DNA from: Alphaproteobacteria bacterium
Lineage (GTDB): Bacteria > Pseudomonadota > Alphaproteobacteria > Geminicoccales > Geminicoccaceae
Direction of reading: 5' to 3'
DNA length: 58,590 nt
Assembly: GCA_027045875.1 (NCBI GenBank)
Contig: JALUAG010000039.1
Coordinates: 1-58,590 of the forward strand
A program made the position numbers and the translations under genes. The notes under the pieces were generated by a model. The model did no database searches. It was not told the DNA's origin and saw only the letters and a program-made list of their open reading frames with translations. The first letter of the stretch is position 1, and each line of letters begins with the position of its first letter. Shown piece by piece: positions 43,480 to 58,590 of this stretch.

Positions 43480-45432
43480 ATGACGATGGCAGCATCCTCG
43501 GCGGTGGCGGCACGGATCGCAGCCTGGCGCGAAGCCTGGAAGATCTACGGCGATCCGCGGGTGATCGCGATCCTGGCCCTGGGCTTCTCGAGCGGCCTGC
43601 CGATCATGCTGGTGGCAACGACGTTGAGCACCTGGCTCGCCGAGGCCCAGGTGAGCAAGGCCTCCATCGGCCTCTTCGCCTACGTGTTCGCGCCCTACAC
43701 CTTCAAGTTCGCCTGGGCGCCGTTCATGGACCGGCTGCCGCTGCCGCCGCTCACCACCCTCTTCGGCCGCCGTCGTGGCTGGATGCTGGCCACCCAGCTC
43801 GGCCTCATCCTCTCGATCTACGCCCTCGGCCAGACCGATCCCGCCAACGGGCTCTACTGGACGGCCCTGTGCGCGGTGCTGGTGGCCTTCTTCTCGGCCA
43901 GCCAGGACATCGTGATCGACGCCTACCGGATCGAGATCCTGCCCAAGGAGGAGCTGGGCGCCGGCGCCGGCGTGGTGGTGCTCGGCTATCGCATCGCCAT
44001 GTGGGTGGCGACCGCGGGCGCCCTCCTGATCGCCGATGCCGCCGGCTGGTCGACCGCCTACACGACGATGGCCCTTCTGGTGCTGGTGGGGGTGATCACC
44101 GTGCTGCTGGTGGACGAACCGGAGGGCTCCAGTACCGATCTCATCGAGCCCGGGGTCGAACGGGAGGAGGACCAGCTCGGCCGGGTGATCGGTGCGGGTG
44201 GACAGGCGCGCGGGGGCGCCCTCGGCGGCGCGCTGATCGCCGCCCTGGCCTATCTGCTGGTGATCGAACCGGTTTCGTTCCTGTTCGGCCTCCTCGGCCC
44301 CTACCGGGCGCCGTTCGACGGCGGCCAGTCGCTGCTGGTGGCCGCCAACGCCGCCCTCGTACTGTTCGGCATCGCCGTCGGCGGCAAGATCGTGGTCCGA
44401 GACCCGCAGGCGATGCGCTGGGTCAAGACCTATGCCCTCGTGGCGCTCGGCTGGAGCGTGTTCGAGGTGCTGTGGTACGTCCTGCTGGCCGAGCCCCCCT
44501 ATCTCGGCGAGCTCTATGCCTGGCTGGGCCTCGTGATCCTCTGGTGGCTGGCCGACGGGGTGACGGTGCTGCTGGGCGGCCGCGGATTCGAGATGGCTGC
44601 CTTCACGAGCCCGGTGTGGCTCGTGATCCTCGGGTTCTGGCTGCGCTTCTTCGCCATCGTGGCCCTCTACGGCATGCCCTATTTCAGCCGCCGGGCGGTG
44701 GCCGTTTTCGGCCTCACCCCGCTGCGGGAGGAGGCGCGCCTGCACCTCTGGATGCGCCGGGCGGTGATCGAGCCCTTCTACGACTTCTTCCGCCGTCACG
44801 GGGTGGCGGTAGCCGTGCTGGTGCTCACCCTCATCTCGGTGTTCAAGGCGAGCGACGTCATCCTCACCCTGATGGCCAATCCCTTCTACATCGAGATGGG
44901 CTTCACCAAGGCCCAGATCGCCTGGGTATCGAAGACCTTCGGGCTCTGGATGACCCTCCTGGGCGGCCTCGTCGGGGGCGCCGTCGTGTACCGGTTCGGG
45001 ATCATGCGCTCACTGGCCCTCGCGGTGGTGGTGATGGCCCTGTCCAACCTCTCCTTCCTGCTGCTGGCGGTGAGCGGAGAAGGCGGCGGCGTCGCGCTTT
45101 CGGAGTTCTGGCGGCTCGCCCTGTTCCATCTCGTGATCATCATCGAGAACCTGTCCGGGGGGCTCGGCACCGCGGTGTTCGTGGCCTATCTCTCCTCCCT
45201 CTGCAATCTCCACTACACGGCCGTCCAGTACGCGCTGCTCACCTCCTTCATGCAGCTGTTCGGCAAGTTCGTGATCGTTCCCTCGAGCGGCTTCTTCGTC
45301 GAGGCGGTCGGCTGGCAGCTCTTCTTCGTCACCTCGACCCTGTTCGCCCTGCCGGCGCTCGTTCTCATCTGGCTCCTCCGCCGCATGGGGGTCGAGGTGG
45401 AGCCGGTGCCGGCCGCCGGGGGGCAGGGTTGA
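43480..45432 (+). CDS. ampG: AmpG-like muropeptide MFS transporter, long form
   Basis: 650 residues, AmpG/MFS type with 14 or more helices: [49 protein letters not shown]-like N-terminus (the conserved start of AmpG), [16 protein letters not shown], and C-terminal [23 protein letters not shown]. It brings anhydro-muropeptides into the cytoplasm for cell-wall recycling. It is about 150 residues longer than E. coli AmpG; the extra part lies between about 220 and 400 and holds additional hydrophobic segments. Peptidoglycan D-glutamate released by recycling could feed DgcN/DgcA. Confidence 0.87.
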
Positions 45433-45493
45433 CCACCGAGCTTCAGATTGTTCTAAAGGAAAGGAGACGACGAATATCTCACGGGAGGAACCC

Positions 45494-46474
45494 ATGGTAA
45501 CCAGCTGGTTACGCCGTTTCGGTATCGCCGCTGCCGCCGTCGGCGCGCTCGCCATGGCGGATGCGGCCTCGGCCCAGCAGAAGTTCGTGTCCATCGGCAC
45601 GGGCGGCATCACCGGTGTCTACTACCCGACCGGCGGTGCCATCTGTCGCCTGATGAACAAGCTCCGCAAGGAGACCGGGATCCGCTGCTCGGTCGAGTCG
45701 ACCGGCGGCTCGATCTACAACATCAACGCCATCCGCGCGGGTGAACTCGAGTTCGGTGTCGCCCAGTCCGACTGGCAGTACCATGCCTACAACGGCACCT
45801 CGAAGTTCGAGGAGCAGGGGGCGTTCAAGGATCTGCGGGCGGTGTTCTCGATCCATCCGGAGCCGGTGACCATCGTCGCCCGCGACGATTCGGGGATCCG
45901 GAACATCCTCGACCTCAAGGGCAAGCGCGTGAACATCGGCAATCCGGGGTCGGGCACCCGCGGCACCTGGGAGGTCATCGAGCAGGCGCTCGGCTGGAAG
46001 CGCTCCGACCTCAAGCTCGCCGCCGAGCTGAAGTCGGCCGAGACCGGCCAGGCCCTCTGCGACAACAAGATCGACGCCTATTTCTGGCTCGTCGGCCATC
46101 CCTCGGCGCTGACGCAGGAGACCCTCGCCTCCTGCCCCTCGCATCTGGTCGACGCCCGGGCGCCGGCCCTCGACAAGCTCGTCGAGGAGCGGCCCTACTA
46201 CAGCTTCGCCACCATTCCCGGCGGCATGTACCCGGGCCAGGACGAGGACGTGCGGACCTGGGGCGTGCGCGCCACGCTGGTGACCTCGGCCAAGGTGCCG
46301 GAGGAGGTCGTCTACACGCTCGTGAAGGCGGTGTTCGACAATTTCGACGCCTTCAAGAAGCTGCATCCCGCCTTCGCGCATCTGAACGAGAAGGAGATGA
46401 TCACCGCCTCGCTGTCGGCGCCGCTGCATCCGGGCGCGGTGAAGTACTACAAGGAACGCGGCTGGATGGAGTGA
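45494..46474 (+). CDS. TAXI-family TRAP transporter solute-binding protein
   Basis: 326 residues: signal peptide (about 1-27, ending ASAQQK), then [26 protein letters not shown] and [26 protein letters not shown], the conserved TAXI pattern. It binds a small organic acid or amino acid in the periplasm for the fused TRAP permease encoded next. GGGAGG lies 5 bases before the ATG. The two genes are 194 bases apart, separated by a stem-loop. Confidence 0.94.
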
Positions 46475-46492
46475 GGCCGCCGCGCATGACGC

Positions 46493-46520
46493 CGGGAAGC
46501 CCGTTTCGGCGGGCTTCCCG
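46493..46520 (+). terminator. Stem-loop between TRAP binding protein and permease genes
   Basis: An 11-bp perfect stem (46493-46503 with 46510-46520) with the loop TTTCGG lies 18 bases after the binding-protein stop. No T-run follows, so it probably protects the upstream mRNA or terminates only part of the transcripts. The remaining 148 bases up to the permease start show no other signal. Confidence 0.5.
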
Positions 46521-46668
46521 CAGTGCGTGAACGGCCCGTGAGGGGAACCGGCCTCAGAAACCGCGGCTCACCGACACGGCACGTGCGGACCCGCCGGCGC
46601 CGATCCGCGGCGGGCGGGAGGGTGACGATCCTGCGGGAGCCCGGAGCGGGAACGGGGATGGCTCGCAG

Positions 46669-49317
46669 ATGACGGAACAGGGTACCGGACGGCGGATCGA
46701 CGCCGAGGAGCTGGCCGCCGAGGTCGATACCGGGGCACGCAACCCGACCGGCTTCGCCGGCCGGCTGCTGATCGGCCTGTGCATCGCCTGGTCCCTCTAC
46801 CAGATCTACATCGCCTCTCCGCTGCCGCCGCTGCTCCAGGAATGGGCCCGCGCGGTGGGCCTCGACATCCAGTTCTACATGGGCTCGGTGAAGACGCGCC
46901 GCATCCACCTGGCCTTCGCCCTCGTCCTCGCGGCGCTCGCCTTCCCGCTGCTGAAATCGAGCCCGCGGCGCTACATTCCCTGGTACGACTGGCTGCTGGC
47001 CGCGATCGGCATCGTCGTCACCCTCTACGCGGTGGTGTTCCAGACCGCCATCGCCGAACGCTCCGGCGTACCCATCACCGCCGATCTCTGGATCTCGGCG
47101 ATCGGCATCCTGCTCGTCCTGCTGACCACCTACCGGGCCCTCGGCCTGCCGCTGGTGATCGTCATCACGGTCTTCCTCGTCTACGTGTTCTTCGGCGACA
47201 AGGAGTTCGTGCCCGAGGTCATCCAGTGGAAGGGCGCCAGCTTCTCCAAGGCCATGTGGCATTTCTGGATGCAGGAGGAGGGGGTCTTCGGCAAGCCGCT
47301 CGAAGTGTCCACCACCCTCATCTTCCTGTTCGTCCTGTTCGGCGCCATCCTCGAGAAGGCGGGGGCCGGCGGCTATTTCATCAAGGTGGCCTTCGCCCTG
47401 CTCGGCCATCTGCGCGGCGGTCCGGCCAAGGCGGCGGTGGTGGCCTCGGGTCTTTCCGGTCTCTACTCCGGCTCCTCCATCGCCAACGTGGTGACCACCG
47501 GTACCTTCACCATTCCCCTCATGAAGCGGACCGGCTTCACCCCGGAAAAGGCGGGAGCCGTGGAGGTGGCCTCCTCCACCAACGGCCAGCTCACGCCGCC
47601 GGTCATGGGGGCGGCGGCCTTCCTGATCGCCGAGTTCACCGGCATCCCCTACTTCGAGCTCATCAAGCACGCCTTCGTGCCGGCCCTCATCTCCTACATC
47701 GCGCTCGTCTACATCGTGCATCTCGAGGCCCTCAAGCTCGGCCTCGAAGGTCTGCCCAAGCCCCACACGGGGCGCACGAAGCTTCAGTCGCTCACCCTGT
47801 TCGTGGGCGGCTTCCTCGGCACCATGATCCTGTTCCTGGCCGTCTACTACGGTCTCGGCTGGATCAAGACCGTGTTCCCCGACATGACCTTCACCACGGT
47901 GGTGCTGTTCGGCCTCGCCGCCTACCTGCTGTTGGTCTGGAAGGCGGCCCAGTACCCCGATCTCGCCGCCGACGACCCGAACGCGCCGATCACCGAGCTG
48001 CCGCGGGCGGGCGAGGTGGCCGTCACCGGCCTCTATTTCATCCTGCCGATCATCCTGCTCATCTGGCTGATCATGATCGAGCGGCTGTCGGCGGGCACCG
48101 CCGCCTACTACGCGGTGGTGGCGATGAGCTTCATCGCGCTCACCCATCATGCCCTCAAGGGCCTGTTCCGCGGCGAGGGCGACGTCGTGGCCGGCCTGCG
48201 TCGCGGCTTCGGCGACTGGGTCCAGGGGCTCGTCGCCGGTGCCCGCTCGATGATCGCCATCGCGGTAGCCACCGGTGCCGCCGGCATCATCGTCGGTACC
48301 ATCGGCCTCACCGGCGCCCATCAGGTGGTCGGGGCCTTCGTCGAGTATCTCTCCGCCGGCTCGCTGATTCTCATGCTGCTGCTGGTGGCGGTGATGAGCC
48401 TCATCCTCGGCATGGGCCTGCCGACCACCGCCAACTACATCGTCGTGTCCTCGCTGATGGCGCCGGTGATCATCACCGTGGGCGCCCAGAACGGCCTGCT
48501 GTTGCCGGCGGTGGCGGCGCACATGTTCGTCTTCTACTTCGGCATCCTCGCCGACGACACGCCGCCCGTGGGCCTCGCCGCCTTCGCCGCCGCCGCCATC
48601 TCGGGCGGCGATCCGATCAAGACCGGCATCCAGGGCTTCATGTACGACATCCGCACGGCGATCCTGCCCTTCCTGTTCGTCTTCAACACCGAGCTCTTGC
48701 TGATCGACGTCGGGCTCGCCAAGGGCATCTTCGTGTTCGTGATCGGCGTCATCGCCATGCTGCTGTTCGCGGCCGCCACCCAGCGCTACATGTTCGTGCG
48801 CCTCAGATGGTGGGAGGTGGGGGCGCTGCTGCTGATCGCCTTCACTCTCTTCCGCCCCGGCTTCTGGCTGGACCGGGTGGAACCGCCCTTCGTCGAGCAC
48901 GAGGGCATCCAGCTCGCGCGGGTGATCGAGCGCACCGGCGAGGGCCAGCTCCTGCGGGTGCGCATCGCCGGTCCCGACTTCAACAATCCCGACCGCATCC
49001 GGGGCACCACCGTCAACGTCGAGCTGCCGGCGGGAACCGATCCCCTCGACCGGCTCGCCGATGCGGGTCTGATGGTGACGATCGAGGGGGACCGGGTGAT
49101 CCTCGAGGAGCCCATGCCGGGCACCGCCTTCTTCGAGCTCGCCCAGCAGTTCGACTTCTACGCCGATGCGCCGGTGGTGGTGGCCAGGGTGTACGAGCCT
49201 GCCGAGCGCATGCCCAAGGAGGTGTTCTATATTCCGGCGCTGGCGCTCCTGGGGCTCGTGCTGGCCTCGCAGCTGATCCGCAAGCGACGGCAGGAGACGA
49301 TGGCGGCGGCCGCCTGA
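46669..49317 (+). CDS. TRAP transporter fused permease (DctQ-DctM type) with DUF3394 tail
   Basis: 882 residues. The N-terminal four-helix small subunit (about 30-180) is fused to the large DctM-type subunit (about 210-720), with GLSGLYSGSSIANVVTTGTFTIPLMKR, SSTNGQLTPPVMGAAAFL and GMGLPTTANYIV motifs. The C-terminal soluble part (about 740-860, from VEPPFVEHEGIQLARV) followed by a last helix corresponds to DUF3394. Together with the TAXI protein it imports an organic solute using an ion gradient. The substrate is unknown. Confidence 0.93.
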   Translation: MTEQGTGRRIDAEELAAEVDTGARNPTGFAGRLLIGLCIAWSLYQIYIASPLPPLLQEWARAVGLDIQFYMGSVKTRRIHLAFALVLAALAFPLLKSSPRRYIPWYDWLLAAIGIVVTLYAVVFQTAIAERSGVPITADLWISAIGILLVLLTTYRALGLPLVIVITVFLVYVFFGDKEFVPEVIQWKGASFSKAMWHFWMQEEGVFGKPLEVSTTLIFLFVLFGAILEKAGAGGYFIKVAFALLGHLRGGPAKAAVVASGLSGLYSGSSIANVVTTGTFTIPLMKRTGFTPEKAGAVEVASSTNGQLTPPVMGAAAFLIAEFTGIPYFELIKHAFVPALISYIALVYIVHLEALKLGLEGLPKPHTGRTKLQSLTLFVGGFLGTMILFLAVYYGLGWIKTVFPDMTFTTVVLFGLAAYLLLVWKAAQYPDLAADDPNAPITELPRAGEVAVTGLYFILPIILLIWLIMIERLSAGTAAYYAVVAMSFIALTHHALKGLFRGEGDVVAGLRRGFGDWVQGLVAGARSMIAIAVATGAAGIIVGTIGLTGAHQVVGAFVEYLSAGSLILMLLLVAVMSLILGMGLPTTANYIVVSSLMAPVIITVGAQNGLLLPAVAAHMFVFYFGILADDTPPVGLAAFAAAAISGGDPIKTGIQGFMYDIRTAILPFLFVFNTELLLIDVGLAKGIFVFVIGVIAMLLFAAATQRYMFVRLRWWEVGALLLIAFTLFRPGFWLDRVEPPFVEHEGIQLARVIERTGEGQLLRVRIAGPDFNNPDRIRGTTVNVELPAGTDPLDRLADAGLMVTIEGDRVILEEPMPGTAFFELAQQFDFYADAPVVVARVYEPAERMPKEVFYIPALALLGLVLASQLIRKRRQETMAAAA

Positions 49318-49380
49318 CCGTGGTCGGAACGCGCGCGGGCCGGCCGACCGACGGTGCGGCCTCGCCAACGGAGTAGGGTG

Positions 49381-49809
49381 ATGTTCCGCGACATTCTCGT
49401 CCCGCTCGATCTCGGTGACCCGAAGATCTGGGAGAAGGCGCTGGAGACCGCCGTCACCTTGGCCCGAACCTACGGGGCACGCCTCCGTCTGATGACCGTG
49501 CTGCCGGATTACGGCATGCCCGTCGTGGGTCAGTTCTTCCCGCCGGATCACAGCGAGAAGCTGCGTGCGAAGGCACGCGAGGAGCTCCGCGCCATCGCCC
49601 GGCGTGCGGTGCCCGAAGGGATCGCGGTCGATGTCATGGTGAGCCAGGGGAGCATCTGGCGGGAGATCGTGCGCGAGGCGAAGGAGCGGGAGGTCGATCT
49701 CATCGTCATGGGCTCGCACCGGCCGGGAGTGGGGGACTACGTGCTCGGCGCCAATGCCACCCGGGTGGCCCAGCGGGCGTCCGCCTCGGTGATGATCGTC
49801 CGCAGCTGA
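49381..49809 (+). CDS. Universal stress protein (UspA family)
   Basis: 142 residues with the ATP-binding pattern GSHRPGVGDYVLGANATRVAQRASASVMIV (G-x2-G-x9-G-S/T type) and the N-terminal ILVPLDLGD. It follows the TRAP permease by 63 bases; such UspA proteins next to TRAP genes (as for TeaD) are known to tune transport activity by binding ATP, and the same is inferred here. The ATG at 49381 fits the family; an upstream in-frame start at 49354 overlaps poorly conserved sequence. Confidence 0.88.
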   Translation: MFRDILVPLDLGDPKIWEKALETAVTLARTYGARLRLMTVLPDYGMPVVGQFFPPDHSEKLRAKAREELRAIARRAVPEGIAVDVMVSQGSIWREIVREAKEREVDLIVMGSHRPGVGDYVLGANATRVAQRASASVMIVRS

Positions 49810-49820
49810 GGAGTGCCGGC

Positions 49821-50702
49821 ATGGCGATGGCCGGTAGCGAGCGGATCAAGCATCTGTTCCTGTGGCCGGCGGTGCTGGTGGTGCTGCTGATCGCCCTCTT
49901 TCCGCTCGTCTATTCGCTGACCATCAGCTTCCAGCAGATCCGCCTCGTGCCGCCGACGCCGCCCCGCTTCGTCGGATTCGACAACTACACGACCCTGTTC
50001 TCCCAGCCCCGCTTCTGGCGGGTGCTGTGGAACACCGGGGTGATCAGTGTCACCTCGGTGGCCATCCAGTACGTGCTCGGCTTCGCCATCGCCCTCGCGC
50101 TCCACGCCCGGGTGCCGGGGGAGCGCCTGTTCCGGGTGTCCTTCCTGCTGCCGATGCTGATGGCGCCGGTGGCCGTGGCCCTCATCTGGCGCATGCTGTT
50201 CCACTCCACCCTGGGGCCGGTCAACCAGTTCTTCTCCCTCTTCGGCCTTCCCAACCTGCCCTTCACCACCGATCCCGTCTGGGCCAAGACCTCCCTGATC
50301 GTGGTCGAGGTCTGGCAGTGGACCCCCTTCGTGATCCTCTTGATGCTGGCCGGCCTGCAGTCGCTGCCCGAGGACATCTACGAGGCGGCGCGGCTCGAGG
50401 ACGCCTCGCCCTGGACGCAGTTCTGGACCATCACCTTCCCGCTGCTGCTGCCGGTGTCGGCGGCGGTGGTGTTCATCCGCCTCATCGAATCGATGAAGAT
50501 CATCGACACCGTGTTCGTGCTCACCGGCGGCGGTCCCGGGGTCTCCACCGAGACCCTGACCCTCTACGCCTACCAGGAGGGGCTCAAGAAGTTCAATCTC
50601 GGCTACACGAGCGCCCTGAGCTTCGCCTTCCTGATCATCGTCCTCGTCTTCGGCGCCATCTACCTGGCCCTCCTCCGGCCCCAGATCGAAAAGCGGATCT
50701 GA
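49821..50702 (+). CDS. Sugar-type ABC transporter permease (MalF/UgpA-like), without partner genes
   Basis: 293 residues with six helices and the EAA motif IYEAARLEDASPWTQFWTITFPLLLP, the pattern of sugar ABC permeases. Such a gene normally follows a binding-protein gene and precedes a second permease and an ATPase; here USP is upstream and a foreign-looking AT-richer module is downstream. The protein itself is complete, with the usual end (LRPQIEKRI). It begins 11 bases after the USP stop. The remaining operon genes were probably lost or displaced by the neighbouring insertion. Confidence 0.9.
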   Translation: MAMAGSERIKHLFLWPAVLVVLLIALFPLVYSLTISFQQIRLVPPTPPRFVGFDNYTTLFSQPRFWRVLWNTGVISVTSVAIQYVLGFAIALALHARVPGERLFRVSFLLPMLMAPVAVALIWRMLFHSTLGPVNQFFSLFGLPNLPFTTDPVWAKTSLIVVEVWQWTPFVILLMLAGLQSLPEDIYEAARLEDASPWTQFWTITFPLLLPVSAAVVFIRLIESMKIIDTVFVLTGGGPGVSTETLTLYAYQEGLKKFNLGYTSALSFAFLIIVLVFGAIYLALLRPQIEKRI

Positions 50703-51018
50703 GGAGGGCGGACATTCGCCAGGCTTCGTAGCTGTCCCCGCTACTGGAGCGGTCGTTGGGAGAGCCCATGGGCAAAGCGAGCGCAAGGCAAATCGCAGGT
50801 GAGTGACCACTCGGGCGTTCGGAATGGTTCGAAACCACGACCAGGATCGACCGGCAGGGTCCGCAGAACTAGGGGCCGTGCGTTGGGATTCTTGATCGAA
50901 CCGGCTGTCGCCAATGTGTGGTAAATTTGTATAATTCAAATGGACACGAGACAGACTTCACAGCTTCGCCCTGTGAATTTACAGATGGCTTAGCGATTTG
51001 AGGTGGGATGCCATTGTT
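50703..51018. promoter_or_regulatory. Left boundary of the accessory module with candidate promoter and hairpin
   Basis: 316 bases without a supported gene. Composition drops in GC after about 50880. TATAAT at 50930-50935, preceded by TTG, is the best -10 in the region, but no clear -35 is seen at 16-18 bases. Downstream, TTCACAG (50957-50963) pairs with CTGTGAA (50971-50977) around a 7-base loop; it could be an operator or a leader hairpin. AGGTGGG at 51001-51007 may be the ribosome site for the nuclease gene. No tRNA, integrase or clear attachment repeat was found. Confidence 0.4.
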
Positions 51019-52851
51019 ATGACTGACAAGACACCGATGGAGGGAAAGCCCCCGACACCAATACACTCCATACGGTTGCTCAAAATAAGCCGGTTCCGCG
51101 GCATCGAAAGACTGGAATGGCGGCCGTCTTCCGGATTGAATGTGATCGTTGGGGCTGGCGATACCTGCAAGACCACGATCCTTGAAGCGATTGCCGCCCT
51201 GCTCTCGCCGGCGCCCAATTTGAATTTGTCGGAGTTCGATTACTACCGGCGCGACGCCACGAAGGGATTCACGATCGAGGCTGCGCTTGCTGTGGGCGAC
51301 GGGGCTGCGCTCAAGGGGGACAGGTTTCCGCTGCCGCCATTGCGCGGATGGAAGGACGGACATCTTAGAGACTTGCCCGACGAAGACGGAGCCGAAGCGG
51401 TGCTTGTGTGTCGCCTGACCGGAACACCGGACTTCGAGGCGATATTCGAGGTCGTCGGCGCGGACGAGGAGACGAGGGTGCCGCTGTCGCGTGCGCTCCG
51501 GCAGAGGATCGGGCTATTGAGACTCGGGGTCGCCGATCGCGGGGATCGCGATCTGCGGCTCGTAATGGGCGGGGCTCTGGACCGCTTTATGGAGGGCCAG
51601 CAATTAAGGCAATCGATTCTTCAGGCGATCCTGAAGACACCTATTCACGACCAGCTCGGAACCGAACCGAAGGAAGCGCTCAAGCGCATCGAAGACAAGT
51701 TCAGGGAAAGAAGCCTGCCGCATCCGGTCCGGCTGGGACTTATCGGTACGCCAGGCGTGTCGCTCGCCGCGAGTGTGGGGCTGATGGTCGGGGCCAGCGA
51801 TGAATCGGCCTTGCCACTGCCGGCATGGGGCACGGGCACGCGCCGGCTTGCATCACTGGAGCTGGCTTCCATCCTCGCCGAATCGATCTCGCTTGCGGTG
51901 GTCGATGAACCGGAGTCCGGCTTAGAGCCCTACCGGCAGCGCGCCTTCATTGGCGACTTGCATCAGGGCGGCAAGCGCCAGGCTTTTATCACGACGCACG
52001 CGCCGGCGGTCCTGTCGGCCGGTGCGGCCGCCGGGGCTGTGATCTGGCGGATCAATCCGGCTGCAGCAACGCCTGCCGAAGAAAAAAGAGAAACCGCAGA
52101 AGGCGAAGACGGCGCGCCGGAGATCGCCGAAGTGACGCACTCGCATGTACTGACAGCACTCGAGAGCGCAGAAATCAGAACGCTGTTGAAGTTCCACCCG
52201 GAAGCTGTTCTGGCCCGACTGCCGGTCATCTGCGAAGGAATCACGGAAAAAGGCTTCGCGACAAAATTGTTTGCCGACAAGTTCGGCGACGGCTTCCCGG
52301 CGCGGGGGATCTTCTGCGTCGATGCAGGCGGGCACGATAAGGCGCTGGCGATTTGCCGCAAGCTGATCGAAGCCGGATTCCAAATAGCGGCTGTCGTGGA
52401 CGATGAAGGGCGCAAGGGCGGAAGCTGGCAGATGGTCGGAGAAAAAGCGACGTTGCTTCAGTGGGAGGACGGCGCCGCGTTAGAAGTCGCCGTTCTGACG
52501 GCCTTGCCCGATCACGTCCTGCCAAAGGTCGTCGGCTGGCCGGAGGAATTTTCGGGCAGGGAAGCAAGGCACTGCCTGGCGGATCTGCGGATCGCCCTGG
52601 ATGTCGAAGACAAGGGCAAGACGGCCGAAGAACTTTTCGCGGCGTGCGGGCGGGAGCGTTTCTTGAGCGCGCTGTGCCAGACGGCATGTCCGCCGCGGGA
52701 GGGCGACAAAAAGCCGAAGGGCTGGTTCAAGTCCTTCGAGGGCGGATATCTGTTGGCTGAAAAATTGCTCGCGCTCGAGCCGAAGCCGCAGCAGCTCCTC
52801 TGCAGGATCGAGGCATTTCTGACGGCGATCGAGGCGGCCACAGCGGCATGA
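51019..52851 (+). CDS. gajA: GajA-like OLD-family ATPase/TOPRIM nuclease
   Basis: 610 residues (Bacillus GajA 578). An SMC-like ATPase domain has Walker A G45-AGDT-C50-K51-T52, in which Cys replaces the usual Gly before Lys; signature-like GTGTRRLASLEL near 271; Walker B AVVDEPESGLEP (D296, E297); and H-loop TTHAP (H327). A TOPRIM domain follows: VICEG (E406), FCVD (D435) and VVDDEG (D461, D462), the metal-binding acids of OLD nucleases. Expected role: nucleotide-regulated DNA nicking or cleavage in defence, together with GajB. The ATG at 51019 is taken; a TTG at 50998 is possible. Base composition is lower in GC than that of the genes to the left. Confidence 0.85.
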   Translation: MTDKTPMEGKPPTPIHSIRLLKISRFRGIERLEWRPSSGLNVIVGAGDTCKTTILEAIAALLSPAPNLNLSEFDYYRRDATKGFTIEAALAVGDGAALKGDRFPLPPLRGWKDGHLRDLPDEDGAEAVLVCRLTGTPDFEAIFEVVGADEETRVPLSRALRQRIGLLRLGVADRGDRDLRLVMGGALDRFMEGQQLRQSILQAILKTPIHDQLGTEPKEALKRIEDKFRERSLPHPVRLGLIGTPGVSLAASVGLMVGASDESALPLPAWGTGTRRLASLELASILAESISLAVVDEPESGLEPYRQRAFIGDLHQGGKRQAFITTHAPAVLSAGAAAGAVIWRINPAAATPAEEKRETAEGEDGAPEIAEVTHSHVLTALESAEIRTLLKFHPEAVLARLPVICEGITEKGFATKLFADKFGDGFPARGIFCVDAGGHDKALAICRKLIEAGFQIAAVVDDEGRKGGSWQMVGEKATLLQWEDGAALEVAVLTALPDHVLPKVVGWPEEFSGREARHCLADLRIALDVEDKGKTAEELFAACGRERFLSALCQTACPPREGDKKPKGWFKSFEGGYLLAEKLLALEPKPQQLLCRIEAFLTAIEAATAA

Positions 52852-54338
52852 CGCGGCATGTGGACGACAAGCTGCACTCCGGCGCGCCGGTTGTGGTTAT
52901 TGAAGCCCCCGGCGGGTGTGGCAAAACGACAAAGGCCGCCAAGTTTGCACTGGAAGCCGCAGGGCGTCTTAAATCGGGCAAGGTGCTTCTGCTGTCGCAT
53001 ACCCATGCAGCTTGCGGCGAGTTCCAGAGAAAGTGCGCGGGGCACAGGGGAAGAGTCGATGTCGAGACCTGCGATAGCTTTTGCCTGAAGGCTATCGCCA
53101 CCTATACGCGCCCTTTGAATTTACCGGCACCTGTCGAGGCCCACCTTGACCGGCCCAGCGGCGGCATAAGGTTCGCCGACCTGAGCAAGAAGGCATGCGA
53201 GCTTTTCAAACGAGCGCCAACTGTGGCCAGGGCCGTCGCAGCCTATTACCCGCTCATCGTTCTGGATGAGCACCAGGACGCCAGAATATCGCAGCATGAA
53301 GCCGTGTTCCTGCTGCGGGAGATCGGCGGTTCCAGGTTGCGTATCTTCGGTGACCCGATGCAGGCAATTCATGAGACCAGCACTGAACCCTGCGTCAATT
53401 GGGACAGGCTGTGGGCGGCGGCAGACGACAAAGCATGTCTGGAAGAGCCATATCGATGGAGCGATGCCCGCGAGCTTGGTGAGTGGATTATGGCGTGCCG
53501 TTCGGCGCTCAAAGCCGGAAACCCGATTTCCTTGAAGGGAGCGCCGCGGATGGTGTCGGTTTCCTCTCACGCAGGACTGGCCGGACCAAAGAGATTGCGG
53601 GATGTTCGAGCGGCAAGCAGCGTCGTTCACCGCTTTCTGGACGACGCGCCGAACAGTGCGGCGATTCTCGCCTACCGGAATGAAATGGTGAAAACGGTTG
53701 CACAGGTCGGAAGCTGGCGCGCGCCGATAAACGAAGGCGCGCGGCTCGATGAGCTGGACACGTTGATTCAGGCCATGGAGGCGCATGCCGGGAACGCCGA
53801 ACGATTGGCGCGTGCATTTCTCGATTTTCTCAGCGTCATCGGCGCCGGTCTTACCCAATCTCTGTGCTCGGGTTTGCGCGGTCGGCTTGGCGCGACGATT
53901 AATCGCCAACGGGCAGGGTCGAAACAAAACGCGTGGCTGAATTGTCTCCAAGCGATCTACGCGTGTCCCGATCATCGGGGCGTGGCGACCGCGATGCGTG
54001 CCATTCGGGACATGCCCCCGCCAGGTTACACGATCCGGTTGCACGATCACGTGTGGGCACTGTGTTCGTTTAGCCGTACGGACGATCCGCGCGGCTTTCG
54101 GAGTATGTTGGGGCGAATTCGGCGGCAACGAAAATGCCCGCCGCAAATGGTGAGCACGATCCACAAGGCCAAGGGGCTGGATTTCGATCATGTACTTCTG
54201 TGCCCGGTTGATCGCCATCAGTATCCCGATGGCGATCTCGGCGCGCGCCTCCTCTACGTCGGACTGAGCCGAGCAAGGCTCTCGATCAGGCTCGCCGTCA
54301 CAGCGGATGCCCCGACAAGCCATGTAGCAGTGGATTAG
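52848..54338 (+). CDS. gajB: GajB-like UvrD/PcrA-family SF1 helicase
   Basis: 496 residues, close to Bacillus GajB (494). SF1A motifs in order: Walker A APGGCGKTT (K26), motif II DEHQD at 140-144, motif III FGDPMQAIH at about 167-174, motif V STIHKAKGLDFDHV (H439, K442) and motif VI YVGLSRAR (470-477). It lacks the large 1B/2B insertions of full-length UvrD, as GajB does. It starts with ATGA overlapping the nuclease stop, so both are translated together. In Gabija the helicase partner senses or processes DNA ends generated in infection and acts in one complex with GajA. Confidence 0.87.
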   Translation: MTRHVDDKLHSGAPVVVIEAPGGCGKTTKAAKFALEAAGRLKSGKVLLLSHTHAACGEFQRKCAGHRGRVDVETCDSFCLKAIATYTRPLNLPAPVEAHLDRPSGGIRFADLSKKACELFKRAPTVARAVAAYYPLIVLDEHQDARISQHEAVFLLREIGGSRLRIFGDPMQAIHETSTEPCVNWDRLWAAADDKACLEEPYRWSDARELGEWIMACRSALKAGNPISLKGAPRMVSVSSHAGLAGPKRLRDVRAASSVVHRFLDDAPNSAAILAYRNEMVKTVAQVGSWRAPINEGARLDELDTLIQAMEAHAGNAERLARAFLDFLSVIGAGLTQSLCSGLRGRLGATINRQRAGSKQNAWLNCLQAIYACPDHRGVATAMRAIRDMPPPGYTIRLHDHVWALCSFSRTDDPRGFRSMLGRIRRQRKCPPQMVSTIHKAKGLDFDHVLLCPVDRHQYPDGDLGARLLYVGLSRARLSIRLAVTADAPTSHVAVD

Positions 54339-54422
54339 CTAGCTCATCTGGTCGCTGAGGCCGGTGGGAAGGCGTTCGAATAGGTCCAGCTCGAACCGCC
54401 TGGTCGTCGGCAAGGCGGAACA

Positions 54423-54680
54423 TCAGCCATGGGCACGCTTCAGCGCGTCGAGGCTCGACCACTCGGTGAGGTCTTGGCGCTCGCGCGCCTCGCGCATCGC
54501 ATCCCGCGTCTCGGCATTGGGAATTTCAACGGCAAAGGGCAATCCGCGGCGCAGCGCCACCTGCCGGCAGAACGGTCGGATCGCCCCGGCCGGTCTCAAT
54601 CCGAGCGCGCGCAGAATGGTTTCCGCCTCCGCCTCGAGCTCGGGCTCGACGCGGGCACGAACCGTGTCTGTCTTGGCCAT
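54423..54680 (-). CDS. RelB/DinJ-family antitoxin, no toxin found
   Basis: 85 residues: N-terminal ribbon-helix-helix-like segment DTVRARVEPELEAEAETILRALGL and the conserved core AIRPFCRQVALRRGLPFAVEIPNAETRDAMREARE of RelB/DinJ proteins. The C-terminus would bind a RelE/YafQ-type toxin. The ATG at 54680 starts the conserved part. The expected toxin gene would overlap the stop at 54423-54425; only a 41-codon frame (54300-54423) and, in another frame, a fragment-like RFELDLFERLP tail ending at 54339 exist there. The antitoxin therefore looks orphaned, or the toxin is degraded. Confidence 0.8.
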   Translation of the reverse strand: MAKTDTVRARVEPELEAEAETILRALGLRPAGAIRPFCRQVALRRGLPFAVEIPNAETRDAMREARERQDLTEWSSLDALKRAHG

Positions 54681-54788
54681 CGCTGCTTGCTTTCGTCCCA
54701 ATGCAGCGCGCCCGGGGAACGGCGCAACGCGACCTCGCGAACCGGTGCGTGGCCTGCCCGTGCTGGCGCAGGGTTCCTCGCTAGCCCC

Positions 54789-55403
54789 CTACAGCTGCCG
54801 GGGCAGGGTGGCCTGCATGGAGGGGCGGGACTCGAAGCGGGCGAACCAGTCGGCGAGCCGGGCGTGGCCCTCGCGCCACTTGTCGGCGCCGAAGCGGAAA
54901 TCGAGATAGCCCAGGGCGCAAGCGATCGTGATGCTGCCGATGTCCGCCTCCTCGGCGAGCTGGTCGACATTCTGCTCCAGCCAGTCGAGCCCCCGCTGGA
55001 CCTTGAGCTTCTGATGCTCGATCCAGGCCTGCCAGCGCAGCTCCTCGGGACGCAGGAAGGTCTCGTAGCGGGCAAGGAGGGCCGCTTCCATCATGCCGTC
55101 GCCCAGGGCCTGCAGGGTGAGCGCCCGCCAGCGGGCATCGCCCGCCTGGGGGTACAGGCGGCCGCCACCCGCGAGATGGTCGAGATACTCGCAGATGACG
55201 CGCGAATCGTAGAGGGCGTGCCCGTTGTCGAGGACCATGGTGGGAAGCTTGCCGAGCGGGTTGTCGGCGATCACCGCCTCGCTGGGCTCCACCGGCGAGA
55301 GCAGATGATCGTCGACGGTGATGCGGTCGGCGAGACCCAGCTCGTGGGCCGCGACCATCACCTTGCGGCCGAACGGCGATGCCGGATTGCTGTGCAGGCG
55401 CAT
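54789..55403 (-). CDS. Glutathione S-transferase
   Basis: 204 residues: thioredoxin-like N-terminal domain (SNPASPFGRKVMVAAHELGL as the active region, with Ser near residue 5-9, NPLGKLPTMVLDNGHALYDSRVICEYLD for glutathione binding) and an all-helical C-terminal domain (RALTLQALGDGMMEAALLARYE). It conjugates or removes groups with glutathione, substrate unknown. The ATG at 55403 follows a GGAC/GGGGGAG region. GC content is again high, so it lies outside the accessory module. Confidence 0.93.
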   Translation of the reverse strand: MRLHSNPASPFGRKVMVAAHELGLADRITVDDHLLSPVEPSEAVIADNPLGKLPTMVLDNGHALYDSRVICEYLDHLAGGGRLYPQAGDARWRALTLQALGDGMMEAALLARYETFLRPEELRWQAWIEHQKLKVQRGLDWLEQNVDQLAEEADIGSITIACALGYLDFRFGADKWREGHARLADWFARFESRPSMQATLPRQL

Positions 55404-55530
55404 GTCCTCGTCTCCCCCGTGTTTCCGTTGCGGTCGGCCGGCACCGCGAGGCGGCGCCCGTGGATCGATCCTCCAGCCGTCCAAGAGGTAGTGCCTGTTC
55501 CGCTGCGGCGAAAGGCCCGTCGCCCGACGC

Positions 55531-56175
55531 TCAGGCGGTACCGCGGCGGCGGTCGTTCTCGCCGACATGGAGGGTCCAGAGCACGACCCGCTTGAGGACC
55601 TTGCCGAGGGCCTCGTCGAAGGCGGTGACCACCGCCTCGAAGCGGCGCTCCTCGACCGGGAAGGCGGCCCGGAACCGCTCGCTCGCCACCACCCGCCGGC
55701 GCGGCATGCGCAGGAGGGTCGCGGTCAGCGACACGACCGCCGTCCGCCCGCCGTCGCGGGCCTGCCGCACCTGGAAGGCGGTCAGCACCGAACGCAGCAG
55801 ATAGTCCGGGCGCAGCGGATCGCGGTCGGTGCCGGCGGTCACCGCGCCGGAGGCGAGGAAGGACTGCACGAGCAGGATCTGCACCAGCGCCGGCACGCGG
55901 TCCGACCAGACGACGTTGGCGAAGTAGGCGATTTCGGTGCCGTCGCGCAGGAGCGCGATGCGATCGGTGTCGAGCGCCCGCTCGGCCAGGGGCTCGCTCA
56001 CCGCCACCGTCCAGTCGACGCGGGGCAGGTCCGGGGGGAAGGTGGTCTTGGGCGTGAGGCGGAAGACCCTGGGCGGCGGACCGGGGCGGGGCAGGGTGGC
56101 ACAGGCCGCGAGGAGGAGCGGGGCGGCAGCTCCCAGACGGAGGAGATCGCGGCGCGCGGGGCGAGGCGCCTTCAC
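55531..56175 (-). CDS. ABC-type transport auxiliary lipoprotein (PqiC/MlaB-neighbour type)
   Basis: 214 residues: lipoprotein signal with a twin-arginine-like start (PARRDLLRLGAAAPLLLAACATLP, Cys near residue 25), then the ABC-trans-aux pattern RVFRLTPKTTFPPDLPRVDWTVAVSEPLAERALDTDRIALLRDGTEIAYFANVVWSDRVPALVQ-like segment, which is typical of PqiC. It sits on the periplasmic face as a partner of the MCE protein encoded upstream; its start overlaps that gene's stop by 4 bases (ATGA). Confidence 0.88.
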   Translation of the reverse strand: MKAPRPARRDLLRLGAAAPLLLAACATLPRPGPPPRVFRLTPKTTFPPDLPRVDWTVAVSEPLAERALDTDRIALLRDGTEIAYFANVVWSDRVPALVQILLVQSFLASGAVTAGTDRDPLRPDYLLRSVLTAFQVRQARDGGRTAVVSLTATLLRMPRRRVVASERFRAAFPVEERRFEAVVTAFDEALGKVLKRVVLWTLHVGENDRRRGTA

Positions 56176-57173
56176 GGTCGCACGCCTTCGGACAGCCGGT
56201 CGCCGAAGAAGAAGCGGGCCGGATCCTGGCGGATGTCGCGCAGCAGGCTCTGGAGTTCGTTGACCATCCGGGTCGCATCCTCGATCAGCCCGGTCAGCAG
56301 GGGCAGGCCGGTATCCGTGAAATCCTTCACCGGGGCACGGTTTTCCTCAACCATCAGACGCAGCTGGCGGGCGGTTTTTCCGATTTCGCGTGACGTGTCG
56401 GCGACAGTGGCGAGGACCTCCTCGAGCTGCGCGTCCCGGCGTTCGAGCCGCGACCCGAGATCGCGGGCGAGGGCGGCCGTGGCCGTGGCCGCCGCCCGCA
56501 GATCGGCGACGAGAGCGGGCAGGCCGTCGAGCAGGCGCTCCAGGCGCCCGGCGGCACCGGCGCCATGTTCGAGCAGCGCCTCCATCCGTGCGAGATTGGC
56601 GTCGTCCAGCAGGCGCGCGATGCGTGCCGCCACCTTGTCGATGCGCGCCACCGTGGCGGGCAGGGTCGCCGCCACCTCGTCCAGGGAGCGCGTCAGCCGC
56701 GACAGGGGCGAGGGCAGGGCCGGGATCTCGGGCAGGGCGCCGGGCGGCGCGGGTGGCGGCGGCGGGGCTTCGGGATAGAGATCGAGGGCCACGTAGAGCT
56801 GGCCCGTGAGCAGGCTTTCGAGCTGCAGTCGCGCCCGCAGCCCCGCCGCCACCAGTTCCTCGAGCCGCCGGCCGCCGTCGCCCTCGAGGCGGATCCGCTC
56901 GGGCACGATCTCGAGGACCACCGGCACCCGCAGGCTGCCGGTGGCGACGTCGTACTCGGCGGTGATCTCGACCACCGTGCCCACCGGCACGCCCCGGAAG
57001 GCCACCGTGGCCCCCCGCCGCAGGCCCTTCACCGATTCGTCGAAACGGACGAGGAAGCGCTCGCTGCGCGAGAAGAGCCGGCCACCGCCGACCGCCAGTA
57101 CCAGCACCAGGAACAGTACGAGGGCGCCGAGCACGAAGGCGCCCACGAGCTTGGGGTCGGCGGGTCTGCTCAC
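56172..57173 (-). CDS. mlaD: MCE-family lipid-binding protein (MlaD-like)
   Basis: 333 residues: N-terminal helix (VGAFVLGALVLFLVLVLAVGGG), an MCE domain (about 38-125) with FDESVKGLRRGATVAFRGVPVGTV and LESLLTGQLYVALDLYP, a Pro-rich link, and a long coiled-coil C-terminus (SRLTRSLDEVAATLPATVARIDKVAARI and beyond). It is longer than E. coli MlaD because of the helical tail, as in PqiB/MCE proteins of Alphaproteobacteria. It carries phospholipids between the membrane permease and partners. The GTG at 57173 overlaps the ATPase stop. Confidence 0.92.
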   Translation of the reverse strand: MSRPADPKLVGAFVLGALVLFLVLVLAVGGGRLFSRSERFLVRFDESVKGLRRGATVAFRGVPVGTVVEITAEYDVATGSLRVPVVLEIVPERIRLEGDGGRRLEELVAAGLRARLQLESLLTGQLYVALDLYPEAPPPPPAPPGALPEIPALPSPLSRLTRSLDEVAATLPATVARIDKVAARIARLLDDANLARMEALLEHGAGAAGRLERLLDGLPALVADLRAAATATAALARDLGSRLERRDAQLEEVLATVADTSREIGKTARQLRLMVEENRAPVKDFTDTGLPLLTGLIEDATRMVNELQSLLRDIRQDPARFFFGDRLSEGVRP

Positions 57174-57991
57174 GATGGCTCTCCGCTGGGTTCGGAAGGC
57201 CGCGCGGCTTTGCCGCGGGAGAGGAAGGCGCGCACCTTGGGCGGTCCCTCGGCCGCCAGCCGACGGGGGGCGCCGCGGGCGATGGCGGTGCGGCTCTCGA
57301 TGTCGAGGAACAGGCATTCGTCGGCGATGGTCAGGATGCTGGCCAGCTCGTGGGTGACCACCACCATGGTGGTGCCGAGGCCCGCCCGCAGCTCCAGCAG
57401 CAGCTCGTCGATGTGGCGGGCGTTGAGGGGGTCGAGCCCGGCGGTGGGCTCGTCGAGGAACAGAAGGCCGGGATCGAGGGCCAGCGCCCGGGCGATCGCC
57501 GCCCGCTTGCGCATGCCCCCCGAGAGCTCGTGCGGATAGAGCTCCTCGAGCCCTTCGAGACCGACCAGGGCCAGCCGATAGGCCACGAGATCGGCGATCG
57601 CCGTGGCGTCGAGGCTGGTGTGTCGGCGGAGCGGCAGCGCCAGGTTCTCGGCCAGTGTCAGCGAGCTCCAGAGCGCCCCGCTCTGGAAGGCGATGCCGAT
57701 CCGGCGCTGCAGGGCGGCACGCCGCTCGGGCTCGATCTCCCACAGCGAGAGCCCGTCGATCACGACCCGCCCCGCCGCCGGTGGCAGCAGCCCCACGAGG
57801 GCCCGCATGAGGGTGCTCTTGCCGCAGCCGCTCTCGCCCATGACGACGAAGATGTCCCGCCGGCGGACGGTGAAATCGATCCGCTGCAGGACGAGCGTCT
57901 CGCCGTAGCCCACCGCCAGCCCCTCGACCTCGAGGCAGGCCTCCGGCGGGGCGGCGCCCGCGGTCGCGGGGGCGTCAGATGTCGAGGACAT
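57170..57991 (-). CDS. mlaF: Mla-type lipid ABC transporter ATP-binding protein
   Basis: 273 residues with Walker A MGESGCGKST, Q-loop GIAFQSGALWSSLTLAENL, signature ELSGGMRKRAAIARAL, Walker B LLFLDEPTAGLD and H-loop VVTHE. The FQSGALWSSLT stretch is characteristic of MlaF/MkL ATPases. It powers lipid transport with the MlaE permease; the ATG at 57991 lies inside the 3' end of mlaE (17-base overlap), so the two are co-translated. Confidence 0.94.
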   Translation of the reverse strand: MSSTSDAPATAGAAPPEACLEVEGLAVGYGETLVLQRIDFTVRRRDIFVVMGESGCGKSTLMRALVGLLPPAAGRVVIDGLSLWEIEPERRAALQRRIGIAFQSGALWSSLTLAENLALPLRRHTSLDATAIADLVAYRLALVGLEGLEELYPHELSGGMRKRAAIARALALDPGLLFLDEPTAGLDPLNARHIDELLLELRAGLGTTMVVVTHELASILTIADECLFLDIESRTAIARGAPRRLAAEGPPKVRAFLSRGKAARPSEPSGEPS

Positions 57992-58529
57992 AGTAGACCA
58001 CGGTCATCAGGGCGTCGCCGAGAACGATGAGCACGATGCCGAGCACCACCGCTCCGGTCGTCGCCCGGCCGACGGCGGCGGCGCTGCGGCCGCTGTGGAG
58101 CCCCATCAGGCAGCCGGCGAAGGCGACCAGCCAGCCGAACAGCGCCGCCTTGCCGAGCCCGGCGCCGAAATCGGCGAGCGAGAGATGGGCGAGGCTCTGC
58201 TCGTAGTACTGCAGCAGGGTGACGTCGGAAAGGAAGATGGTGCTGACCGCCCCGCCCAGGATGCCGACGGCGTCGGCGTAGAGGGCGAGAAGCGGCATCA
58301 TGAGGGCCAGCGCCAGCATGCGCGGCAGTACCAGATGGTCGACCGGGGGAATGCCGAGGGCGCGCAGGGCGTCGATCTCCTCGCCGGCCTGCATGCTGCC
58401 GAGCTCGGCGGCATAGGCCGCGCCGGTGCGCCCGGCCATGATGATGGCGGCCATCAGCGCGCCCATCTCCCGCGCCATGCCGAGGGTGACGAGGTTGGCG
58501 ACGTAGATCTCCGCACCCAGCCGGCCGAG
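57975..58529 (-). CDS. mlaE: Mla-type lipid ABC transporter permease, 5' end missing
   Basis: MlaE core: LVTLGMAREMGALMAAIIMAGRTGAAYAAELGSMQAGEEIDALRALGI-like segment, then four hydrophobic stretches ending MTVVYYVLDI. The N-terminal part is absent because the genuine sequence stops near 58529, where an inverted copy begins. Only about 185 of an expected 250-370 residues are present. The frame stays open through the inverted copy, but that extension is not MlaE-like and should be discarded. Confidence 0.88.
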   Translation of the reverse strand, partial: LGRLGAEIYVANLVTLGMAREMGALMAAIIMAGRTGAAYAAELGSMQAGEEIDALRALGIPPVDHLVLPRMLALALMMPLLALYADAVGILGGAVSTIFLSDVTLLQYYEQSLAHLSLADFGAGLGKAALFGWLVAFAGCLMGLHSGRSAAAVGRATTGAVVLGIVLIVLGDALMTVVYYVLDI

Positions 58530-58590
58530 CTGGGTGCGGAGATCTACGTCGCCAACCTCGTCACCCTCGGCATGGCGCGGGAGATGGGCG
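58460..58590. repeat. 61-bp perfect inverted repeat with 9-base spacer at the window end
   Basis: Bases 58460-58520 are the exact reverse complement of 58530-58590, separated by CCGGCCGAG. The left arm is normal mlaE coding sequence (minus strand, AEIYVANLVTLGMAREMG); the right arm repeats the same codons on the plus strand and ends exactly at the window edge. This is the pattern of a fold-back assembly or amplification artefact. Confidence 0.93.

Follow-up and report, generated by a model that had tools for sequence, protein, structure and literature searches.

The 58,590-base window analysed here, which is the entire contig JALUAG010000039.1 of a bacterium of the Geminicoccaceae, carries two overlapping genes that very probably constitute an anti-phage system, a Gabija from a divergent clade. 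We base this identification on the PADLOC Gabija models, which are the best matches for both encoded proteins, and on the clade of the nuclease (clade W), which is nested among OLD nucleases paired with a helicase. Every Gabija-defining feature that could be tested was found in the pair, the second acid pair of the nuclease (D511/D513 in Bacillus cereus GajA) aside. Judged by its sequence, the pair belongs to a deep clade to which the PADLOC models are only a distant fit and is not a new kind of system, and it looks functional, with intact genes and kept catalytic positions. A preliminary description of this DNA had proposed that an accessory module here holds a Gabija, or class 2 OLD, pair, and profile matches, fold, tree and genomic context bear this out.

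Gene pair and predicted structures

51019–52851, + strand: gajA-type gene for an ABC ATPase with TOPRIM nuclease, 610 amino acids (Pfam, PADLOC, AlphaFold2, fold comparison, tree)
52848–54338, + strand: gajB-type gene for a UvrD/Rep-like superfamily 1 (SF1) helicase, 496 amino acids (Pfam, PADLOC, structure model)

Both frames are open and intact on the + strand and overlap by 4 bases; the coordinates, frame and lengths in the preliminary description were exact. The same holds for its assignment of the products as an ATPase with TOPRIM nuclease and an SF1 helicase: the nuclease matched the Pfam domains AAA_21 (4.6e-12), AAA_15 and OLD-like_TOPRIM (21.3 bits, slightly below the cut-off of 23.2), and the helicase matched UvrD-helicase in its N-terminal and UvrD_C_2 in its C-terminal part. 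A profile search against defence families, which had been proposed as a check, revealed that the top PADLOC models were GajA PDLC04168 for the nuclease (7e-75, 250 bits, residues 17–587) and GajB PDLC04173 for the helicase (7e-49, 165 bits, residues 16–483), both near full length; these matches were graded by E-value and bit score, without PADLOC's own cut-offs.

AlphaFold2 models of the nuclease (54 rows) and the helicase (48 rows) reached mean predicted local distance difference test scores (pLDDT) of 88.4 and 91.3, respectively. With the nuclease model, Foldseek placed GajA 8u7i on top (3e-18), followed by the Thermus scotoductus OLD nuclease 6p74 (2.9e-17). In VIA-align comparisons, cohesin and SMC heads ranked first by Z (20.5) over only ~280–290 residues, and GajA (8u7i, Z 19.3, 407 aligned; 8x5i, Z 19.1, root-mean-square deviation 4.9, 429 aligned), with a match across almost the entire protein, was tied with OLD 6p74 (Z 18.8, 404 aligned). 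Similarly, the nuclease profile of the clade found GajA 8sm3 (2.4e-16) and then class 1 OLD 6p74 (1.6e-15) among solved structures. The helicase model was nearest UvrD (Z 32.1, 398 aligned), and solved GajB was absent from its best 50 structure matches, which UvrD, Rep and PcrA headed; the helicase profile found UvrD (1.2e-22) ahead of GajB (2.7e-20). These results indicate that fold and profile alone decide nothing between class 1 and class 2 OLD, and that the helicase partner and the tree do.

The nuclease carries a tail of ~14 residues ahead of its first strand, with a mean pLDDT of 50 at residues 1–10, and the median nuclease length in clade W is 588. The longer N-terminal part once taken as the mark of a separate subtype amounts to this low-confidence tail and does not serve as such a mark.

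Phylogeny and gene linkage

We built a tree of 60 rows, comprising 19 from clade W, 18 from clade P (the Gabija of the PADLOC models), 19 other helicase-paired rows and 4 long-branched class 1 OLD rows. Clade W and clade P were supported at 100/100 and 100/98, respectively, and W+P at 100/100; W+P joined six canonical pairs at 100/97, and a branch supported at 98/94 separated all helicase-paired rows from class 1 OLD. The L267 row was kept at 916 residues, and among the 19 canonical rows the helicase of L105 was recognised from sequence only and the helicase match of L116 was weak. For deep branches this tree supersedes a 101-row tree (Shimodaira–Hasegawa-like approximate likelihood ratio test only), which holds 66 of the 79 clade-W loci; the remaining 13, with frames shorter than 540 amino acids, were assigned to clade W by default. 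A single origin of helicase pairing is supported but not proven, because the class 1 rows are few and long-branched. The window nuclease branches off close to the base of clade W, as does a Microvirga protein, at a fork without resolution, and the end branch of the window measures 0.96–1.13. The separate subtype that the preliminary description had envisaged stands as a deep, well-supported clade; the two traits by which it was to be recognised, the longer N-terminal part and the altered Walker A, do not define that clade.

Of the 110 loci examined (L120 duplicates L046), 104 had a helicase frame close to the nuclease frame and on its strand; among the 79 clade-W loci counted without the window and the duplicate, all of which had been found by the nuclease alone, 74 did. 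Among the five clade-W loci lacking such a frame, L161, L167 and L180 reach the end of the fetched stretch, and L174 and L188 have short nuclease frames of 466 and 277 amino acids. Spacings fell between −250 and +40 bases in 69/74 loci, computed on the longest frame, which overstates the overlaps for some loci; an overlap of exactly 4 bases was the commonest arrangement (34/74). The linked clade-W helicase frames had at least 450 amino acids in 69/74 cases, with L032, L034, L088, L170 and L185 shorter. Furthermore, nuclease and helicase distances were correlated in Mantel tests, with r 0.98 for 95 rows and r 0.95 for the 63 rows of clade W, values that none of 2000 permutations reached. The linkage of nuclease and helicase exceeds chance.

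Split or truncated helicase genes were observed at L032:7758-9274, L094:8724-10153 and L034:7737-8609, the last beside a Tn3-type transposase. Because the helicase gene is split or truncated in some relatives, copies of the pair may decay.

Catalytic residues and motifs

51151–51177, + strand: Walker A GAGDTCKTT, residues 45–53, with Cys50 where most relatives have Gly
51895–51933, + strand: Walker B and D-loop AVVDEPESGLEPY, residues 293–305; D296, E297, E299, G301, L302 and E303 invariant in 54 rows
52234–52236, + strand: TOPRIM Glu406, taken as GajA E379; Glu in 101/101 rows, EGxxE pattern, residues as listed in PMC10822852
52399–52407, + strand: TOPRIM D461-x-E463, taken as GajA D432/D434; D461 in 66/67 clade-W rows
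52483–52485, + strand: Glu489, further acidic site in a pattern like BpOLD T506-x-E508; Glu in 66/67 clade-W and 28/28 clade-P rows
52729–52731, + strand: Lys571 in WFKS, probable catalytic lysine (GajA K541 / BpOLD K562); in 65/65 clade-W and 28/28 clade-P rows with a residue

The residue list in PMC10822852 gives E379, E383, D432, D434, D511, D513 and K541 as conserved in the TOPRIM domain of B. cereus GajA, with E400, E404, D455, D457, T506, E508 and K562 as their BpOLD equivalents; the mutants described in PMC8136825 include E379A, D511A and K541A, each of which abolished cleavage. Through motifs and spacing, not superposed structures, E406, E410, D461, E463, E489 and K571 of the window can be read as counterparts of conserved GajA residues. 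The positions of GajA E379, E383, D432, D434 and K541 are matched by E406, E410, D461, E463 (Glu for Asp) and K571, and E489 fits GajA D513 or BpOLD E508 by spacing. Within clade W these residues are kept in 67/67 (E406), 67/67 (E410), 66/67 (D461), 62/67 (E463), 66/67 (E489) and 65/65 rows (K571); the Lys571 counts exclude 6 canonical rows that are gapped at that point of the alignment. Position 463 is Glu in 62, Asp in 4 and Thr in 1 of the clade-W rows, and Asp in 28/28 clade-P rows. Among the metal-binding acids that the preliminary description had named, E406 and D461 thus hold, whereas D435 (79/101 rows) and D462 (36/101) do not.

Walker A K51 is present in 100/100 rows with a residue. 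Position 50 across the 101 GajA rows is Gly in 92, Thr in 6, Cys in 2 and a gap in 1. Cys50 of the window is the sole non-Gly in clade W, the 65 others of the 66 rows with a residue having Gly; in clade P, 7 of the 28 rows lack Gly (Gly 21, Thr 6, Cys 1). The eight rows with a non-Gly P-loop require at least five changes on the tree. These counts indicate that replacement of the P-loop Gly recurs in otherwise intact proteins. Since Cys50 is confined to the window within clade W yet such replacement recurs in clade P, it defines no subtype, and we rejected the altered Walker A as a subtype mark. The experiments on B. cereus GajA in PMC8136825 include K35A in the same loop, which altered neither cleavage nor ATP inhibition; because K35A left both as before, loss of function through Cys50 is not to be assumed.

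52905–52931, + strand: helicase motif I, APGGCGKTT; K26 and T27 in 101/101 rows with a residue
53265–53279, + strand: helicase motif II, DEHQD; D140, E141, Q143 and D144 in 102/102 rows
54150–54182, + strand: helicase motif V, VSTIHKAKGLD; H439 in 69/69 clade-W rows with a residue
54252–54275, + strand: helicase motif VI, LYVGLSRA; R475 in 101/101 rows with a residue

D169, Q172 and R203 of the helicase are also kept wherever the residue is present (102 rows). Residue 439 (54162–54164) is His in all 69 clade-W and in 5/5 other rows, and Leu in 27/27 clade-P rows; motif V was considered as a mark of clade W and dropped, clade P being the odd one out. In clade-P GajB, LLxKG stands in place of the HKAKG part of motif V, a change in a conserved helicase motif that cleanly marks this clade.

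Distribution of relatives

When 398 genomes of the phylum were searched with the nuclease, 48 contained matches at 1e-3, most of them short and confined to ABC heads; the best beyond the own genome was G289 (2.3e-71), with ten further genomes at ≤4e-10. Scores against PDLC04168 were 643–797 bits for eight full-length clade-P proteins, 429 for a clade-P fragment, 250 for the window, 239 for G289 and 101 for the next genome. In genome contigs, a single-sequence search with the window nuclease found no relative, and an alignment-query search yielded 79 loci (best 80 matches kept). These are mostly Pseudomonadota; among the best 80, Acidobacteriota, Gemmatimonadota, Planctomycetota, Verrucomicrobiota and Actinomycetota contribute one or a few loci each. 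Clade W, with 79 further loci from several phyla, some of them near-identical, widens the range of Gabija; no description of it surfaced in our literature search, in which paper texts were not combed for this clade.

Among viral contigs one matched, of clade P, and no relative was found in the 50,697 phage records searched. The plasmid collection gave 294 matching records, none reaching 60% identity, and those nearest across most of the protein had 33–36%; 178 of the 294 are predicted to be conjugative. In the 16 annotated plasmid loci, the nuclease relatives are named ATP-binding protein, AAA family ATPase or hypothetical protein, and the helicase relatives UvrD-helicase domain-containing protein and similar.

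Klebsiella accounts for 179 of the 294 plasmid records with a GajA relative. One Klebsiella pneumoniae plasmid (L097) carries a clade-P pair, annotated as ATP-binding protein and UvrD-helicase protein, that adjoins TrlF and Abi genes. Clade-P pairs also occur in Actinomycetota, namely in Kocuria, Curtobacterium, Nocardioides, Atopobium, Glutamicibacter and Eggerthellaceae (L179, L183, L184, L190-L193).

Genomic site and neighbouring genes

50709–54388: stretch of 3,680 bases without counterpart in two congeners, holding the leader and both genes (blastn)
54389–54422, − strand: YafQ-type toxin gene, first residues only, cut by the unmatched stretch; whole in L233, from which the window reading diverges after ~15 residues
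54423–54701, − strand: RelB-type antitoxin gene, left without its toxin (Pfam RelB 2.3e-08)
50908–50935, + strand: sigma-70-like promoter candidate in the AT-rich leader, TATAAT with a weak first hexamer (consensus scan)

We compared window positions 44001–58590 with the congener contigs L233 and L234 by blastn. Left-flank matches ended at 50708 and right-flank matches started at 54389 in both, and the flanks of the pair lie ~1.6 kb apart in both congeners. At that site (L233:4122-5699 in G399; L234:4684-6288 in G398) the congeners hold a complete YafQ-type toxin gene (Pfam YafQ_toxin 3.6e-31 in L233) and a 423-residue gene that matches the PADLOC candidate defence family PDC-S54 (7.8e-124 in L233), with a near-identical frame in L234. 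A site where two congeners hold another candidate defence gene illustrates defence-gene exchange cleanly and on a small scale. In the two congeners and 28 genomes of the same family, neither the nuclease nor the helicase search found a full-length relative; these 30 genomes gave partial ABC-head or helicase-motif matches below 25 bits, in 6 for the nuclease and 2 for the helicase. Of the 316-base leader, the genome has this single copy, and the two congeners gave no match. The GC content at third codon positions (GC3) is 0.72 and 0.67 in the pair vs 0.86–0.96 in five genes upstream. Because relatives lack the pair, the congener site is swapped and GC3 deviates, the pair looks like a foreign, exchangeable cassette.

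No word of 7–14 bases common to 50681–50780 and 54311–54400 was found as a scar. The promoter candidate is weak, since the consensus scan found 1 vs 0.6 expected; the 116 bases directly before the gajA-type gene have a GC content of 45%. The flanking genes scanned encode a universal stress protein, an ABC permease, RelB, a glutathione S-transferase, an ABC auxiliary lipoprotein and an ABC ATPase; none is a reverse transcriptase gene beside the nuclease, the trait of class 3 (retron) OLD. The ABC permease gene (49821–50702) ends right before the exchange site, with no partner permease or ATPase gene after it on its strand in the window or in L233. The PDC-S54-type congener gene has no Pfam match at 0.01, and its ECKVW stretch could be a PD-(D/E)XK motif; the name PDC-S54 was not met in the literature searched.

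The 148 proteins sampled beside 49 clade-W loci matched 225 PADLOC families at 1e-8, vs 14 for 148 control proteins; 225 vs 14 is not a count of proteins, because each family shown is hit by two or three proteins and related models overlap. The 25 families shown of the 225 include type I methyltransferases, retron reverse transcriptases with their partner, dCTP deaminase and Vsr. Open reading frames (ORFs) came from a home-made gene caller: the neighbours are a random draw of 148 from 196 called ORFs, those above 900 amino acids dropped, with all 49 loci and several phyla represented, and the controls were taken from arbitrary stretches in 20 genomes of the same class, one stretch each, which gave 265 ORFs, 148 of them used; no matching for accessory regions was applied, and a few control genomes (G095, G289 and G303) carry a GajA relative elsewhere. 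Similarly, a named defence gene lies within 7 kb in 6 of the 16 annotated plasmid loci (clades W and P), namely AbiEii with dCTP deaminase in one, Shedu in three, a restriction endonuclease in one, and TrlF with Abi in one. Taken together, the defence context of the pair is strong.

Proposed mode of action and alternative explanations

In the preferred reading, the gajA-type product is a nuclease of the OLD type, with an ABC-ATPase head and a TOPRIM nuclease in one chain, and the gajB-type product is a compact SF1 helicase resembling UvrD that is probably translated from the same transcript. By analogy with studied Gabija systems, the two most likely form one complex in which nucleotide bound by the ATPase head would keep the TOPRIM nuclease silent. 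Once a phage lowers nucleotide levels, or lays bare DNA ends or strands for GajB to engage, the TOPRIM site would nick the invading DNA, and the infection would fail. For complex formation, nucleotide control, DNA-end licensing and phage protection alike we draw on those systems: the biochemical account in PMC8136825 has the ATPase head bind nucleotides and hold the nuclease off, the structural accounts in PMC10781630 and PMC10822852 have GajA and GajB form a large complex, and a preprint (PMC12407980) proposes that the target is linear DNA that RecBCD has not engaged. In clade W, natural variants of the P-loop and the TOPRIM metal site provide a way to test which residues lie behind nucleotide control and cleavage. 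We regard a further-reaching version as doubtful. It would make clade W a separate Gabija subtype, mostly proteobacterial and marked by DxE in the TOPRIM centre, with the window copy and the Microvirga pair as its two most divergent lineages; the Cys P-loop of the window would alter nucleotide sensing, so that the trigger would be unlike that of B. cereus GajAB.

Several observations weigh against a Gabija identity. The window scores are low (250 bits vs 643–797 in clade P for the nuclease; 165 vs 571 for one clade-P member for the helicase), and PDLC04168 has matches, almost all of them weak and due to generic ABC heads, in 322 of the 398 genomes and in 11 of 14 controls; since weak matches are this widespread, controls included, only high scores mean much. 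Identity to kin is only 27–39% for the nuclease (53 rows) and 26–35% for the helicase (47 rows). For the clade profile, class 1 OLD is hardly more distant than B. cereus GajA, and helicase profile and model both match UvrD better than solved GajB. The Cys50 in Walker A is unusual, and the essential GajA Asp511 has, by spacing, no acidic counterpart in the window: residue 487 is Ala, as BpOLD has Thr506 there (Cys in 53/67 clade-W rows). Finally, in 10 of the 16 annotated plasmid loci no defence gene is named, apart from toxin–antitoxin types in some.

The UvrD-like helicase fold, together with a nuclease head like those of RecF, Rad50 and SMC proteins, would suit a housekeeping DNA repair pair of a UvrD/PcrA-like helicase and a RecF/OLD-like partner. 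We looked for this outcome, which the preliminary description had named as refuting, and did not find it: the helicase scored 17–26 bits against the NCBIfam UvrD, PcrA and Rep models, whose equivalog cut-offs are 911–1168, presence is patchy, with no full-length relative in 30 close relatives, and the low GC3 and the site swap likewise speak against it. Given the sub-cut-off scores and the absence from close relatives, we reject this explanation as scarcely credible. That the pair is a Gabija system whose function is lost, its P-loop Gly replaced and its copy on a long branch (0.96–1.13), strikes us as very improbable; Cys50 is the only non-Gly among the 66 clade-W rows with a residue, but both frames are open with catalytic positions kept, the eight non-Gly rows imply repeated change in the loop, and the GajA K35A result in PMC8136825 argues in the same direction. 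A pair that chiefly targets plasmids or other mobile DNA instead of phages, or serves competition among mobile elements, would accord with the abundance of relatives on plasmids, most of them predicted conjugative, and with the lack of any in phage records; we consider it improbable, as phages are the target in the accounts of studied Gabija systems (PMC10781630, PMC12407980) and the families beside clade-W pairs belong to an anti-phage library. The reading we prefer is a Gabija from a divergent clade that acts against phages.

Relation to characterised systems

The pair resembles B. cereus VD045 GajAB (PDB 8SM3) in its ABC ATPase with TOPRIM domain, its mostly equivalent active-site positions, its SF1 helicase partner and its similar protein sizes. 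The similarity of clade W to B. cereus GajAB is at profile level only (2.4e-16 and about 4e-20), and the window nuclease has no acid at the place of D511; for clade W a complex and activity like those of GajAB are putative.

Class 1 OLD from T. scotoductus (6P74) has the same two-domain nuclease fold (Z 18.8, 404 aligned). Class 1 OLD stands alone, whereas the window nuclease gene overlaps a helicase gene by 4 bases, and the class 1 rows fall outside the helicase-paired rows in the tree (6P74 is not among the tree rows). Septu PtuA, retron OLD/PtuA and PARIS AriA have the ABC ATPase head in common with the window nuclease. PtuA and AriA are not known to have a TOPRIM domain, and in place of a helicase, Septu PtuA, retron OLD/PtuA and AriA work with an HNH nuclease, a retron or AriB.

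The Gabija of the PADLOC models (clade P, e.g. L097) shares gene order, domains and a compact helicase with the window pair; its helicase frames have mostly 456–517 amino acids, and the window helicase has 496. The two differ in sequence, at ~25–28% identity, in the TOPRIM centre, which is DxD in 28/28 clade-P rows and DxE in 62/67 clade-W rows, and in helicase motif V, where clade P has Leu in 27/27 rows and the window has His439.

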